DNA of 33,948 nucleotides, taken from the NCBI GenBank assembly GCA_029934065.1, contig JAOZMX010000012.1, positions 1 through 33,948 on the forward strand. Reading direction: 5' to 3'. Below are positions 7,544 to 24,693 of this stretch, piece after piece. Position 1 is the first letter of the stretch; every line of letters begins with the position of its first letter. Under the pieces are notes generated by a model. That model saw only the letters and a program-made list of their open reading frames with translations, made no database searches and was not told the origin of the DNA. Origin of the DNA: Bacteroidales bacterium (GTDB taxonomy: Bacteria > Bacteroidota > Bacteroidia > Bacteroidales > 4484-276). The position numbers and the translations under genes are program-made.

Positions 7544-9220
7544 ATGAAACGTCAATTTAACATAGGTCAAAGTGATTTTAAGAATTATATCGAAAGGAAT
7601 GCTTATTACATTGACAAAACGCATTTTATTAAAGAGATCATTGAAGATAACAGCGAGGTGCTGTTGCTTCCGCGTCCCCGGCGGTTCGGCAAAACTCTGA
7701 ACCTTTCGATGTTGCGGTATTTTTTCGAGAAATCCGGGGAAGACCGGGCGGGATTGTTTGACGGGCTAGCCATCCGAAACGAAAAAGAACTTTTTGAAAA
7801 ACATCAGGGACAATACCCTGTGATCTATCTGACTTTTAAAGATGTTGTTTTTAACAGTTTTGAAAATGCCGCAAGTGAAATCATTGACATTATTGTTTCG
7901 GAATTTTCTAAATACACATTTTTAGCCGAATCCATCCGGGATGAAAATGACAGGAAATATTTTAAGGAGGTATTGACGGCAGACAATCCGGTTCGCTTTT
8001 ACAGCAAATCGCTCAAGGTGCTGTCAAACATTCTTGAACAGTATTACCGTCAAAAAGTCGTCATTCTGATTGATGAATATGACACACCTATTCATGCTGC
8101 TTACAATTATGGCTTTTATGAGGAGATGGTCATTTTTATGCGCAATTTGATGTCGGGAGCGTTCAAGGACAATCCCGCTCTGTTCAAGGGAGTCATCACG
8201 GGCATTTTGCGTGTTTCGAAAGAGAGTATCTTTTCGGGATTGAACAATCTTGGGGTTTACACGGTACTCAACCGGCGCTTTTCGGATAAATTCGGCATTA
8301 CCGAAACCGAACTGGAAAAGGTATGTGATGATTTCGATTGCAGGGAGGCGCTGGAAGGGATCAGAAACTGGTACAACGGCTATCGCTTTGGCGACACGAT
8401 CATTTACAATCCATGGTCCATCACTTTATATATCTCTAACCGCGAAGACGGTTTCAGGCCCTATTGGGTCAACACTTCATCTAACGAAATCCTCTACGAA
8501 CTCATCAGCACCTCGCCAATGTCGGTGAAAAACGATTTCGAAAAATTGCTTAAAAACGAAACCGTCAAAAAACCACTGAACGAGGAAGTGGTGTTGAGGG
8601 ATGTGAAAAATGATTTTGAAAATACTTTCAGCTTTTTGTTTTTCAGCGGATACCTCACATGGTCGGATGTGGAACGTGTCGGGAGAAAAGATTTTTATTA
8701 TCTGAAGATACCCAACGAAGAGGTGCATTTTATTTTTGAAACCGTCATTCAAAAATGGTTCAAGTCAGCTATGGACGATCACGATCTGCAGATCATGCTG
8801 GAAGCATTAACAAAGGGTAAAATAGATGTTTTTGAAAGAATATTCGGCACTTTTGTCATGGAGACGTTATCCTATTTCGATGTTAACAAGAAAAACGAAG
8901 AAGCCGTATATCAGGCGTTTATTCTCGGCTTGTTGACCAATCTTTCAGCTACACATGAAATTTATTCCAACAGGGAATCGGGCTTCGGAAGGTATGATAT
9001 TTCCATTATTCCCAGGGATACTACAAAACCGGGAATCATCATGGAGCTGAAAACAATTGATTCTTTTGAAAACGAGACAAAAGATACAGCGCTTGACAAA
9101 GCCGTCAGTCAGATTGTCAAACGCAAATACAAAAGCGAGCTGGAAAAACGCGGCATCAAGAAAATTATTCAAATGGGTGTCGTATTTGACGGAAAACGGG
9201 TTTGGATAAAAACCATCTGA
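7544..9220 (+). CDS. AAA-ATPase-like protein with PD-(D/E)XK nuclease domain (PF09820/PF08011 type)
   Basis: The 558-residue protein matches an architecture abundant in Bacteroidota: an N-terminal AAA-ATPase-like domain and a C-terminal PD-(D/E)XK nuclease-like domain. The nucleotide-binding loop is the family variant PRPRRFGKTLNLSML near residue 45. VVILIDEYDTPIHAAYNYG near 170-188 is the Walker B region with the characteristic DEYD. Near the C-terminus GRYDISIIP followed by GIIMELKTID gives the D...ExK active-site pattern. Family function is unproven, with mobile-element or defence-related roles suggested. It is monocistronic, with divergent and convergent neighbours, and looks intact. Confidence 0.85.
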   Translation: MKRQFNIGQSDFKNYIERNAYYIDKTHFIKEIIEDNSEVLLLPRPRRFGKTLNLSMLRYFFEKSGEDRAGLFDGLAIRNEKELFEKHQGQYPVIYLTFKDVVFNSFENAASEIIDIIVSEFSKYTFLAESIRDENDRKYFKEVLTADNPVRFYSKSLKVLSNILEQYYRQKVVILIDEYDTPIHAAYNYGFYEEMVIFMRNLMSGAFKDNPALFKGVITGILRVSKESIFSGLNNLGVYTVLNRRFSDKFGITETELEKVCDDFDCREALEGIRNWYNGYRFGDTIIYNPWSITLYISNREDGFRPYWVNTSSNEILYELISTSPMSVKNDFEKLLKNETVKKPLNEEVVLRDVKNDFENTFSFLFFSGYLTWSDVERVGRKDFYYLKIPNEEVHFIFETVIQKWFKSAMDDHDLQIMLEALTKGKIDVFERIFGTFVMETLSYFDVNKKNEEAVYQAFILGLLTNLSATHEIYSNRESGFGRYDISIIPRDTTKPGIIMELKTIDSFENETKDTALDKAVSQIVKRKYKSELEKRGIKKIIQMGVVFDGKRVWIKTI

Positions 9221-9294
9221 CTCACCTTTGGTAATAACAGCATGATGCGCCGGTCATTGCATCAAAGATAGTCTTTCAACCCGGTAAAAATCCT

Positions 9295-11352
9295 TTATTT
9301 TTCGATTCTGATCCTTGCATCCACAGCAACAACTTGATCGGCAGTGCCCAATAAGGGATTCAGGTCCATTTCCATAATTTCGGGAGCTGTCGTAACCAGT
9401 GCCGAGAGACGAACGATGATTTCGGCAAACTGTTTTTCGTTGACGCCTTTTTGTCCGCGGACACCCTGAATGATCTTGTAGCTTTTCAGCCTTTTTATCA
9501 TGGCGGATGTTTCCTCAAGAGTCAGTGGAGCCAGGCCTGTTTGCACATCTTTGAGCACTTCGATGAAGATACCACCCAGTCCGCACAAAACCATATGTCC
9601 GAAGCCGTGTTCAAACTTGGCTCCGGCAAAGAGTTCAATGCCCGAAAGCATCGGCTGGATCAAAACAGCGGTTGTGTCCTTTATTTTCATCATCCTCTCA
9701 AACTCTTTGCTCACCGCATCGCCGTCTTTAACATTCAGCACTACTCCGCCGACGTCCGATTTGTGTACCGGGCCTACCACTTTCATTACTACCGGGAATC
9801 CCAGCAGTGCGGCAGCTTCAACGGCATCTTCGGCAGTGGTGACCACTTTTTCGCCGGCCCGTACAATTCCGGCTGCATCAAGTAGTTGCTGTACCGCATC
9901 CGGCGGTAAGTATCCGTTGTGGTGTTTCCGAATGATCTCCCTGATCGAATCCGTATCCATCGGTGGCAGTTCTGTATCGGCTGCTGCCGGTGGCGCCGTA
10001 TGAAAAACCCTGCACAAGGCATTGCCCAGAACAGCTTCGTCGGGGAAGTTTACCCTGCCGCGTGCAAGAAATTCTTCCACCTCGGCTTTTGCCGTCACCA
10101 CCGACGGAAGTACCGGGAAAATGGGCTTCCGGGCAGTTTTCATCTTTTCATCCAGTACCCGGTAAGCGTCAAATACCTTGGTCAGTCCCGGTGTTCCGAA
10201 AATAACCACCATCCCGTCTATTTCGTCAAATTCTTTATCAACATAATCGATGATAATACCAAGTTGTTCCGCCGTGCCCGTGGCGAGGAAATCAATGGGA
10301 TTGGCTACCGACGAACCGGGGAAGAGTTGCTCCGCCAGTTTTTTTGTTTTAGGATTTTTGATCTGCGGGACTTTAAGCCCCCCATGGGAAAGGGCATCGG
10401 TGAGCATCACGGCGGGGCCGCCGGCATGGGTAATGATGGCAATGTTTTCGCCCTTCAGCGGCGGATGCATAAATACCGACGCCACCGAAATGAGGTCTTC
10501 GCGGCCATGGCAACGGACGATGCCGGCCTTGCGGAAAAGGGCGTCCACGGCAACGTCGGGACTGGCAAGTGCTCCCGTGTGTGATGAGGCGGCACGGCTG
10601 CCTGCTTCCGATGAGCCTGCTTTCACGGCGGCTATCCTGCACCCTTTTCTGATGAGCGATGCCGCATGCAGCAATAATTTCTGGGGTTTGTCAATATTTT
10701 CGATGTACAACAATTTCACCCGTGAACTGGTTTCGGGGTCAAATGTTTCGTCCATATATTCAAGGATCTCTTCCACACCCATTTGTGCGCTGTTTCCCAC
10801 CGAAAACACACTGTTAAAAGTCAATCCTTTGGGAATGGCTGCTTCCATGATAAAGCAGGCCGTGGCTCCCGAACCCGAAATAAAATCAATTCCTTTGGGA
10901 TCGAGTTTCGGAATGGGCTCGGTAAAAACGCTTGCATGGTCGGGAGTAAGTACCCCGATGCAGTTGGGCCCGATCAATGAGCCTTTCACCGAATTAACCA
11001 CTTCAACGATCTTCTGTTCCAGCTCCTTACCGGCTTCATTCTCTTCGCCGAAGCCCGCAGAGATGATGATGAAAGCACGGGTGCCCTTGGTGTGAGCCAA
11101 TTCTTTAACCGTTTGCAGCGAATATTTGGCCGCTATGGCTAAAATGGCCAGATCAACCTCGGGCAAATCAGCCAGTTTTTGATACGACTTGATGCCCTGG
11201 ACTTCCGTTTCCTTCGGATTGGAAACATAGAGCTTGCCTTTGTATTGTGTATCGATCAGGTTTTTCAATACTTTTCCGCCGGGTTTGGTGATGTCGTTGG
11301 AACCACCGACCACAACAATGCTTTCAGGATGAATCAATGCTTTGGTAACCAT
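9295..11352 (-). CDS. Acetate--CoA ligase (ADP-forming), fused alpha-beta subunits
   Basis: It converts an acyl-CoA such as acetyl-CoA, with ADP and phosphate, to the free acid, CoA and ATP in one step, an energy-conserving reaction of many anaerobes. The frame opens at a codon at 11436, but MVTKALIHPESIVVVGG from ATG 11352 is the natural start and gives 685 residues. The N-terminal CoA-binding domain contains VVVGGSNDITKPGGKVL. Next come succinyl-CoA-ligase-like domains with the phosphohistidine candidate H258 in SSHTGALASPD. The last roughly 220 residues form an ATP-grasp domain with GFPVVMKVVGPVHKSDVGG and MEMDLNPLL. Fusion of alpha and beta in one chain is a common arrangement. The preferred acyl-CoA is not determinable. 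Confidence 0.93.
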   Translation of the reverse strand: MVTKALIHPESIVVVGGSNDITKPGGKVLKNLIDTQYKGKLYVSNPKETEVQGIKSYQKLADLPEVDLAILAIAAKYSLQTVKELAHTKGTRAFIIISAGFGEENEAGKELEQKIVEVVNSVKGSLIGPNCIGVLTPDHASVFTEPIPKLDPKGIDFISGSGATACFIMEAAIPKGLTFNSVFSVGNSAQMGVEEILEYMDETFDPETSSRVKLLYIENIDKPQKLLLHAASLIRKGCRIAAVKAGSSEAGSRAASSHTGALASPDVAVDALFRKAGIVRCHGREDLISVASVFMHPPLKGENIAIITHAGGPAVMLTDALSHGGLKVPQIKNPKTKKLAEQLFPGSSVANPIDFLATGTAEQLGIIIDYVDKEFDEIDGMVVIFGTPGLTKVFDAYRVLDEKMKTARKPIFPVLPSVVTAKAEVEEFLARGRVNFPDEAVLGNALCRVFHTAPPAAADTELPPMDTDSIREIIRKHHNGYLPPDAVQQLLDAAGIVRAGEKVVTTAEDAVEAAALLGFPVVMKVVGPVHKSDVGGVVLNVKDGDAVSKEFERMMKIKDTTAVLIQPMLSGIELFAGAKFEHGFGHMVLCGLGGIFIEVLKDVQTGLAPLTLEETSAMIKRLKSYKIIQGVRGQKGVNEKQFAEIIVRLSALVTTAPEIMEMDLNPLLGTADQVVAVDARIRIEK

Positions 11353-22887: not shown

Positions 22888-23652
22888 TTACGGTTTCAAC
22901 AAAATCATTTTTTTCGTCCACTGTGTGTTGCCAATATTGATTTTGCCGAAATAAATCCCTTTTTCCGCCGGTGCGCCGTTTTGACTCACGGCATCCCATA
23001 TAACAGTGTAATTGCCGGGGGCCATTTTTCGATTTGTCAGTTGTTTTACCAAACGTCCGTTCATATCGTAAACCTCCACCTGTACATGCTCCGCTTTTTG
23101 TACTGAAAAATGGATTTCGGCGGAAGTCGTAAATGGATTGGGCGAGACGTAAACGTCGGATGTGCCGGCAGTTTGGTCATTGACGGAAGTATAAGGATTG
23201 TATCCCAAAAAGTAATTGACGATTTCGCCTACGATGTAAGGCTTTGTGTTCAGGCCGGCACCATTGGCGATGGCTCCCATCATCACCGAAGATGTGGCTA
23301 CTTTGTAATTACCGTGGTCGTACAGAAACATCCGTCCGTAGTCGTTTTCGCAGCTAAAGAGCAACTGGGCGCTTAACGAAGAGAGCCTGTCAACGCTGTA
23401 ATGGGGATCGGAGCCTCCGTTGTAATTCGCTTCCAGCCCGGAAGTGATACATTCAGGACCTCCGTAAAGATTTGCCACTTCATCATCGCCGCCATCGTTC
23501 AGATAGGTGATCCCAAGGTATTCGAAAAAACCCGAACCATTGAGGTCTTTGCCGAGGTCAACACTTTCGATGTATAAATTACCGCCGTTATCAAGAAAAG
23601 ATTTCAATTTTGTCCGGTCTGTTGCAGATACAGTACCGGGAGGAGTCAGGCC
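22888..23652 (-). CDS. 3' part of UGA-interrupted T9SS surface protein (C-terminal sorting domain)
   Basis: This frame continues directly, without shift, from the 23653-24693 segment past a single UGA at 23655-23653. It starts GLTPPGTVSATDRTKLKS; the first start-like codon is TTG at 23607, which is unlikely to be a genuine start because it lies inside a conserved-looking domain. Residues SFLDNGGNLYIES resemble a flavodoxin-like or ThuA-like fold common in secreted Bacteroidota proteins. The C-terminal roughly 85 residues are a type A T9SS sorting domain with VYVSPNPFTTSAEI, VYDMNGRLVKQL and KGIYFGKI, ending MILLKP. Without readthrough this domain would lack a signal peptide and could not be secreted. 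Confidence 0.75.
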   Translation of the reverse strand, partial: GLTPPGTVSATDRTKLKSFLDNGGNLYIESVDLGKDLNGSGFFEYLGITYLNDGGDDEVANLYGGPECITSGLEANYNGGSDPHYSVDRLSSLSAQLLFSCENDYGRMFLYDHGNYKVATSSVMMGAIANGAGLNTKPYIVGEIVNYFLGYNPYTSVNDQTAGTSDVYVSPNPFTTSAEIHFSVQKAEHVQVEVYDMNGRLVKQLTNRKMAPGNYTVIWDAVSQNGAPAEKGIYFGKINIGNTQWTKKMILLKP

Positions 23653-23655
23653 TCA
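23614..23655 (-). other. In-frame UGA followed by a strong hairpin (candidate recoding site)
   Basis: UGA is at 23655-23653. After 13 bases the RNA can form CCGGU-A-CUGU / ACAG-ACCGG (23639-23614), nine pairs with one bulged A around a seven-base loop. The loop begins 23 bases after the UGA, inside the spacing reported for bacterial SECIS elements. Against SECIS, the loop AUCUGCA lacks the usual G in its first two positions. Confidence 0.35.
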
Positions 23656-24693
23656 GCTCAGGCAATAGCAACCCATGGTACAAAAGATCATGTCGTACTG
23701 GGTTAAATTTTGCGGCAGGGAGGTCACAAAAATATAATCCAGTCCGGTGGCGTCCAATGCTCTGGTAAGGGCTGTCGAAGCCTGTATCTCATCTCCCGCT
23801 TCGGGGTCAATGATGGTTTCGATGCCGTTGTCGTCATCCCAAACCAGAATGGAGAAATCAATGTCCGGACTGACCCTCACAAAGTGAGTTGTGGAAATGT
23901 CATTTTGTTCAAACTCATCACCCTCTTTCACCACCTTGCCGTAGAGCGTTGTGTTTTGTGCCAGGTCAGGGGTCCATTCAAACTCGTAGTTTTTTTCTTC
24001 GCCGGGGGCAAGGTCATCGGTTACATTCAGCGTGCCCAGCAATTCGTTGAATTTATTGCTGAAAAGCTGAACGGTAAAATCCGTCTGGGACTGATCGCCA
24101 AGGTTCTTGACTTGTACTTCCCATTGTCCCGTTTCGGAGATGTCCAGCACGGTGGGACCACTCACTTCGAGGGCCGTCAGATCGCAGTTCAGCATTTGCG
24201 TAAAGCCTACACTGAATATATCCCACCAGTTCCAATTGTATGTCGTAGGGCCGTATGAACGGAACATGATCTGAACTTCCTGACCTGCAAATTCACTTAC
24301 ATCCAGAACCAGTTCACTTCCTGCAGGGTTACCCCAGTTACCGTTGTCGAAAGTATAGCTCCATAATACATTGTTATTGCCCGAAGCCACAAGAATGATC
24401 TCGGCAGTTTCCGGAGGATTACCTACCGAAAAGATGTCAAGGTATTGCTTTACAATGAGCTCCATTGTATTTTCGGGAAGTGTGATGGATGACGATGTTG
24501 CCGACAGATCGAAATTCGTAATGGCAGGATTCCAGTATAAACGTAATTTCCCGTTGGCAATGCTCCAGTTATCTTCCAATGTCCATCCCAGATTGCTGTT
24601 GAAATCGTCAGACCAGAAAATGGTTTGTGCTGTTGATGATGCTCCCAGTAAGAGCGGGAACATCAGCAAAAAAAAGATTTTTTTCATAATCAA
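23653..24693 (-). CDS. 5' part of UGA-interrupted T9SS surface protein (signal peptide, CARDB-like domain)
   Basis: The protein starts with a signal peptide (MKKIFFLLMFPLLLGASSTAQ from ATG 24687; another ATG lies two codons upstream). A beta-sandwich-like region follows with IFWSDDFNSNLGW and NWNWWDIFSVGFTQ. Next comes a CARDB-like domain (LTALEVSGPTVLDISETGQW, APGEEKNYEFEW) and the start of a flavodoxin-like fold (FSILVWDDDNG). It then meets UGA after FCTMGCYCLS. From ATG 24687 the UGA is codon 345 of 600. The downstream frame supplies the rest of the fold and the T9SS sorting domain, so this is one gene interrupted once. Possible explanations are selenocysteine, stop readthrough, a recent nonsense mutation or a sequence error. 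Function is unknown. Confidence 0.8.
   Translation of the reverse strand: MIMKKIFFLLMFPLLLGASSTAQTIFWSDDFNSNLGWTLEDNWSIANGKLRLYWNPAITNFDLSATSSSITLPENTMELIVKQYLDIFSVGNPPETAEIILVASGNNNVLWSYTFDNGNWGNPAGSELVLDVSEFAGQEVQIMFRSYGPTTYNWNWWDIFSVGFTQMLNCDLTALEVSGPTVLDISETGQWEVQVKNLGDQSQTDFTVQLFSNKFNELLGTLNVTDDLAPGEEKNYEFEWTPDLAQNTTLYGKVVKEGDEFEQNDISTTHFVRVSPDIDFSILVWDDDNGIETIIDPEAGDEIQASTALTRALDATGLDYIFVTSLPQNLTQYDMIFCTMGCYCLS

Follow-up and report, generated by a model that had tools for sequence, protein, structure and literature searches.

The FCYXU motif-type TonB-dependent receptor (NF049945) is a predicted outer-membrane selenoprotein (PMC13188914; PMC12013277). Like the protein described here, it is an envelope protein with a UGA-encoded selenocysteine (Sec) in a CxxU motif after an aromatic residue, but it is an unrelated beta-barrel, has Cys homologues, was reported from Desulfosarcina and is not a cargo of the type IX secretion system (T9SS). 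Two other cell-envelope selenoproteins, the Geobacter-type ExtKL multiheme cytochrome (NF040886) and the GSU2204 family MtrB/PioB-like barrel (NF041027), likewise differ from it, belonging to other families and lacking a T9SS tail (PMC13188914). The CTP synthase C-terminal-region-related selenoprotein (NF004836; PMC13188914) also combines a GATase1-like fold with Sec. However, its motif is GxUxG at the classical nucleophile elbow, whereas the present protein, which is predicted to be secreted, has CxxU in what appears to be the loop after the third strand, with an apparently conserved Glu at the elbow position. Bacteroidota T9SS-dependent proteins of about 1300 aa contain the same Rossmann domain (about 21-34% identity) and occur in the same order and even in the same genome; unlike the present protein, those aligned are without the SU-x-x-TPPG loop, carry neither Cys nor Sec at the site and contain no in-frame stop.

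The stretch of DNA analyzed here (the window) comprises 33,948 nucleotides from a Bacteroidales bacterium (contig JAOZMX010000012.1 of assembly GCA_029934065.1). We are highly confident, in the absence of any protein or selenium measurement, that the product of one gene in this window, hereafter the UGA gene, belongs to a new family of selenoproteins on the cell surface, in which Sec would be inserted at codon 345 and the exported protein would perform CxxU chemistry outside the cell.

A reading frame interrupted by a single UGA

Two minus-strand frames of the window join in phase through a single TGA, and the joined frame of 599 codons contains no other stop. A sequence-only reading of the same DNA had described this arrangement, together with the residues GCYCLS preceding the UGA, and both descriptions were borne out. 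The likely start codon is the ATG at 24687; position 24693 marks an upstream TTG taken from a mechanical list of open reading frames. The features of the gene are given in Table 1.

Table 1. Features of the UGA gene in the window
Feature	Position	Strand	Basis or remark
Complete selenoprotein gene (predicted)	22888..24687	-	599 residues including Sec345; signal peptide, beta-sandwich, CARDB, GATase1-like CxxU domain, T9SS type A tail
In-frame UGA, Sec345 (inferred)	23653..23655	-	Common codon column in all homologues
CxxU motif (C-L-S-U)	23653..23664	-	Cys at -3 invariant
Putative SECIS hairpin	23614..23639	-	CCGGU-(A)-CUGU-AUCUGCA-ACAG-ACCGG, 14-39 nt after UGA
N-terminal signal-peptide-like stretch (MKKIFFLLMFPLLLGASSTAQ)	24625..24687	-	Sequence; conserved in homologues
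N-terminal all-beta domain, without family match	24193..24624	-	AlphaFold2 model
CARDB domain	23920..24183	-	PF07705, E 1.6e-8
Central GATase1-like / ThuA-like Rossmann domain, CxxU in loop after third strand (inferred)	23188..23865	-	AlphaFold2 and Foldseek against PDB
T9SS type A C-terminal sorting domain	22903..23148	-	TIGR04183, PF18962

The T9SS sorting domain that the sequence-only reading had placed downstream of the UGA scored above the curated cut-offs of both models (TIGR04183, 43.4 bits against 23; PF18962, 37.0 against 27). Of the signal peptide and two domains that it had placed upstream, the domains were recovered as the CARDB domain and, in the structural model, the all-beta domain, but the N-terminus can be called only signal-peptide-like: by inspection, without a predictor, it is basic and hydrophobic, ends in AQ and is kept in homologues. 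Outside the tail, the protein had no match in NCBIfam (June 2026), no Pfam family covered the central domain and a PDB sequence search returned no relative. A plasmid search for the gene also gave no match.

The same UGA in every homologue

A search of 98 related genomes gave 18 close matches to the central domain, the window itself among the 18 (41-59% identity, E <= 1.5e-56). Each contained exactly one in-frame TGA, and after strand correction its position was identical in all 18, within the motif MG-x-[YH]-C-L-x-U-[GS]-x-TPPG. We then scanned 84,980 species genomes with a pattern built only from the part after the UGA, so that Cys forms could also be found; this gave 29 loci, every one with TGA at this codon. 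The homologues thus total 47 loci, representing 36 distinct sequences from 31 genomes, all with TGA at the same codon, and a codon alignment of 31 genes placed it in one column. The sequence-only reading had left open whether homologues carry Cys, Trp or Sec here: none of the 47 loci had a Cys, Trp or other sense codon at the site. All named records with the gene are metagenome-assembled genomes, and the contigs include some labeled Cloacimonadota, Chlorobiota and Armatimonadota (labels as deposited, unchecked).

Neither the pattern search of 84,980 species genomes nor a scan of 395 genomes across the phylum revealed a Cys-for-Sec homologue; bacterial selenoproteins usually, but not obligatorily, have such homologues. 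The latter yielded only distant relatives without the stop. In the distant relatives aligned in the first search the loop was absent, hence neither Cys nor Sec occupies the site, and their interpretation as Cys forms was ruled out.

A frame that is open but for one UGA, itself a single base away from a Cys or Trp codon, is what a fresh nonsense mutation, a pseudogene or a sequencing error would look like, and the sequence-only reading had kept mutation or error as a fallback. Such an origin does not account for the recurrence of this UGA across 36 distinct sequences and 31 genomes, for purifying selection downstream of it (dN/dS 0.06-0.23 in four pairs) or for the lack of further decay in any complete copy. 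We therefore consider mutation, sequencing error and gene decay excluded, with practically no chance remaining. Genome-wide reassignment of UGA was rejected as well, because UGA is the ordinary stop of 9 out of 25 genes elsewhere in the window and also terminates some homologues of the UGA gene.

The gene is not always single. A second full-length paralogue lies in the window's own genome (contig C170, 2702-3373, minus strand), and two other genomes (G002 and G006) carry tandem copies (L112 and L113, respectively). Three loci on contigs labeled Cloacimonadota or Armatimonadota (L122, L123 and L124) keep the UGA in a different flanking architecture, with a choice-of-anchor D domain in L122 and the T9SS tail retained in L122 and L124; horizontal transfer or misbinning is possible for these three.

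Linkage to selC-selA-selB

The sequence-only reading had proposed searching the genome for selA, selB, selC and selD, and all four were found. The genes selA, selB and tRNA-Sec cluster on contig C18, all above curated cut-offs, and selD lies elsewhere. Both copies of the UGA gene in this genome are distant from the cluster.

The UGA gene precedes tRNA-SeC (ARAGORN, anticodon tca) on the same strand in 16 public contigs; selA comes next and, where the contig is long enough, selB. The gap between the UGA gene and the tRNA gene was -2 to 206 nt in 15 out of 16 contigs; the exception was L113 (2060 nt), where the second copy of the UGA gene intervenes. At L109, the UGA gene and the tRNA gene share two bases, at the stop codon of the former. 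In the three contigs examined for what lies beyond selB (L099, L107 and L115), genes resembling YedF/TusA and selD come next.

SelA was present in 12 out of 13 gene-bearing relatives and in 10 out of 85 others (Fisher p = 9e-9; 98 relatives), counting as present a fragment at a contig edge in G006. This test ignores relatedness, and 12 of the 13 gene-bearing relatives belong to one family; the physical linkage and the RNA-level selection described below are independent of phylogeny. Among further gene-bearing genomes, 17 out of 18 had SelA, making 29 out of 31 overall. The two without a real selA match were G010 (83% completeness) and G508 (completeness unknown), which may reflect assembly gaps. 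Ten genomes of the same order have selA and tRNA-Sec without the UGA gene.

Separately, the gene for the formate dehydrogenase alpha subunit of the genome G008 (L140; contig C18, 42997-45015) contains a single in-frame TGA and an on-model SECIS, and tRNA-Sec lies on the same contig. G008 was the only one of the 13 gene-bearing relatives with a formate dehydrogenase over the cut-off, and no SelD among the 13 contained a UGA. For these two reasons, the UGA-gene family may account for a main selenoprotein of these bacteria, with the caveat that only the formate dehydrogenase and SelD families were sampled.

The position of the gene, first in the cluster with short gaps in 15 contigs, would also suit a selenium-sensitive switch in which decoding or termination at the UGA adjusts how strongly the downstream selC-selA-selB are expressed, the full-length product being of secondary importance. 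We hold this to be unlikely: the sequence beyond the UGA is conserved at the protein level and keeps an intact T9SS tail, and the two copies away from selCAB in the window's own genome, together with the tandem copies elsewhere, are easier to reconcile with a product that the cell needs than with a leader. That the gene serves as both product and switch is not ruled out. One form of this dual role is a protein that is also a selenium gauge, binding or reducing selenium species outside the cell while Sec-gene expression follows selenium supply through the UGA at the operon's head; in some lineages, the protein would then be the main or sole reason why the Sec machinery is retained. We regard this form as speculative, with only a small chance of being correct.

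A hairpin selected as RNA

The sequence-only reading had noted a nine-pair hairpin beginning 13 nt after the UGA with a loop lacking the usual early G. We found the hairpin with its stem starting at 14 nt, nine pairs and one bulged base, a predicted free energy of -12.2 kcal/mol and a 7-nt loop, AUCUGCA, at nt 24-30. The bSECIS model allows a loop of 3-9 nt located 16-37 nt from the UGA, an upper stem of 4-16 bp and a minimum free energy of -7.5 or lower (PMC13188914), and the window hairpin lies within these limits, with a spacing of 23 nt. One out of 32 homologues, L024, was weaker than the limit (-6.4).

The early G, which the model places in the first two loop positions, was absent from AUCUGCA and from the consensus loop AAAUGCA of the Bacteroidota members, as the sequence-only reading had stated for the window. 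The hairpin is therefore an atypical, off-model SECIS. A G at these positions is usual but not obligatory, and a subset of selenoprotein genes is off-model (PMC13188914). The SECIS of E. coli fdhF is likewise a short hairpin; it begins about 11-14 nt downstream of the UGA, and a single base bulges from its 5' arm. It depends, however, on a bulged U17 and on G23/U24 of the loop (PMC8659212), whereas the UGA-gene hairpin mostly has A or U in the bulge, where one is present, and an AAAUGCA-like loop. On-model elements were found at the Cloacimonadota-labeled L122 (GGUGC-AGUUG-GCACC) and at L124 (GGUC loop); individually, these two hairpins were not more stable than shuffles. In the formate dehydrogenase gene of G008, the UGA is followed by the on-model GGUUGC-GGGACUG-GCAACC, and the same genome has the off-model hairpin.

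Synonymous codon identity peaked gene-wide at codons +7 to +13 after the UGA, reaching 0.89 against 0.47 expected from each pair's own background. This excess of 0.42 lies about 11 SD above the background (mean -0.015, SD 0.040). Codon +10 ended in A whether it encoded Ala, Glu or Val, and Gln at +13 was CAG in 32 out of 32 sequences. The core hairpin (pairs 21-33, 22-32 and 23-31) appeared in the minimum-energy fold of 28 out of 32 real sequences, versus a mean of 6.3 and a maximum of 11 in synonymous-codon shuffles, which preserve the protein and codon usage. Compensatory changes occurred: pair 21-33 went from U-A to C-G in L099 and L115, both substitutions falling at third codon positions, and pair 20-34 went from C-G to U-A, with U-G also present; three pairs never varied and are silent as evidence. 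The RNAalifold consensus was weak (-2.97 kcal/mol), because the lower stem switches between bulged (GGU-N-) and unbulged (GGG-U-) forms and coding conservation limits variation; we therefore used the synonymous-codon null instead. The hairpin is under selection as RNA.

A conserved UGA followed by G or A and then by a hairpin could also serve programmed readthrough by a near-cognate tRNA such as that for Trp, producing short and long isoforms independently of selenium, both with the signal peptide. This explanation leaves unexplained the physical linkage to selC-selA-selB and the co-occurrence with SelA, the use of UGA and never UAG or UAA as the stop, and the invariant Cys at -3 that makes the motif CxxU. 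We judge readthrough very improbable. Selenocysteine, the alternative raised by the sequence-only reading, is strongly supported, because the UGA is conserved, the Sec machinery is present, the gene is linked to selC-selA-selB and the hairpin is selected as RNA. Nor did we meet any of the results that were to count against it: a Cys or Trp codon at the site, a genome without the sel genes where no homologue has the UGA, or further decay in close relatives.

The CxxU domain

CxxU was invariant among homologues, with Cys at -3 without exception, and LxWD-x-DN, CxxU-x-x-TPPG and LYIE are among the nearly invariant positions of the domain. An AlphaFold2 model of the domain, computed with Cys replacing Sec, had a pLDDT of 90.1 and a pTM of 0.90. 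Foldseek searches against the PDB aligned it with ThuA-like proteins, the GATase domain of GMP synthetase and the N-terminus of IFT52 at TM scores of about 0.5-0.66, and in its modeled fold the domain matches the class I glutamine amidotransferase superfamily. With the full-length model, Ig-like domains dominated the matches at TM scores of about 0.2, which was uninformative. The catalytic Cys of the GxCxG elbow is absent, the corresponding strand reading LYIE[SG] in a register inferred from strand order. The placement of CxxU in the loop after strand 3 was likewise inferred from predicted secondary structure, not from coordinates.

Several large proteins per genome (mostly 900-1700 aa) share the GATase1-like domain but not the Sec loop, some of them encoded on contigs C142 and C27 of the window's own genome. 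They are the apparent parent family of the selenoprotein.

Discussion

We infer that selenocysteine would be inserted at codon 345 by SelB and Sec-tRNA(Sec), with the downstream hairpin directing them to the UGA. The finished protein would cross the inner membrane by means of its signal peptide and the outer membrane through the T9SS, after which the CxxU, now outside the cell, would take part in redox reactions or bind selenium or metals. In many selenoproteins, CxxU serves as a redox motif (PMC13188914). A redox or selenium/metal-binding role at the surface is the most likely function, an inference that we favor with some reserve. At L109, an open reading frame overlapping the 3' end of selB (8643-9431) encodes an AhpC/TSA thioredoxin-like protein (FVNCTPC) with a signal peptide and a T9SS tail; this CTPC protein is a plausible extracellular redox partner.

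Within one open-access library, we found no paper relevantly joining selenoproteins or selenocysteine with T9SS cargo. To our knowledge, no earlier selenoprotein leaves the cell by the T9SS, and the product of the UGA gene would be the first. Neither a T9SS protein nor this family appears in a 2026 table of 119 prokaryotic selenoprotein families (PMC13188914). By its authors' own account, deep-Sep may overlook selenoproteins that have no Cys homologues (PMC12013277), a limitation that applies here because none was found for this family. Lacking Cys relatives and having an off-model SECIS, the gene would be missed by both standard searches, those for Cys/UGA pairs and those with bSECIS models, and such genes are presumably recorded in databases as pseudogenes or as a pair of fragments.

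According to a 2015 survey, Bacteroidetes lack Sec decoding (PMC5322559); by contrast, a sub-group of Bacteroidota carries this selenoprotein gene, often at the head of a Sec operon. The finding suggests that other Cys-less selenoproteins are hidden in the same way, and it offers a rule for finding them: inspect the neighbors of selC-selA-selB.
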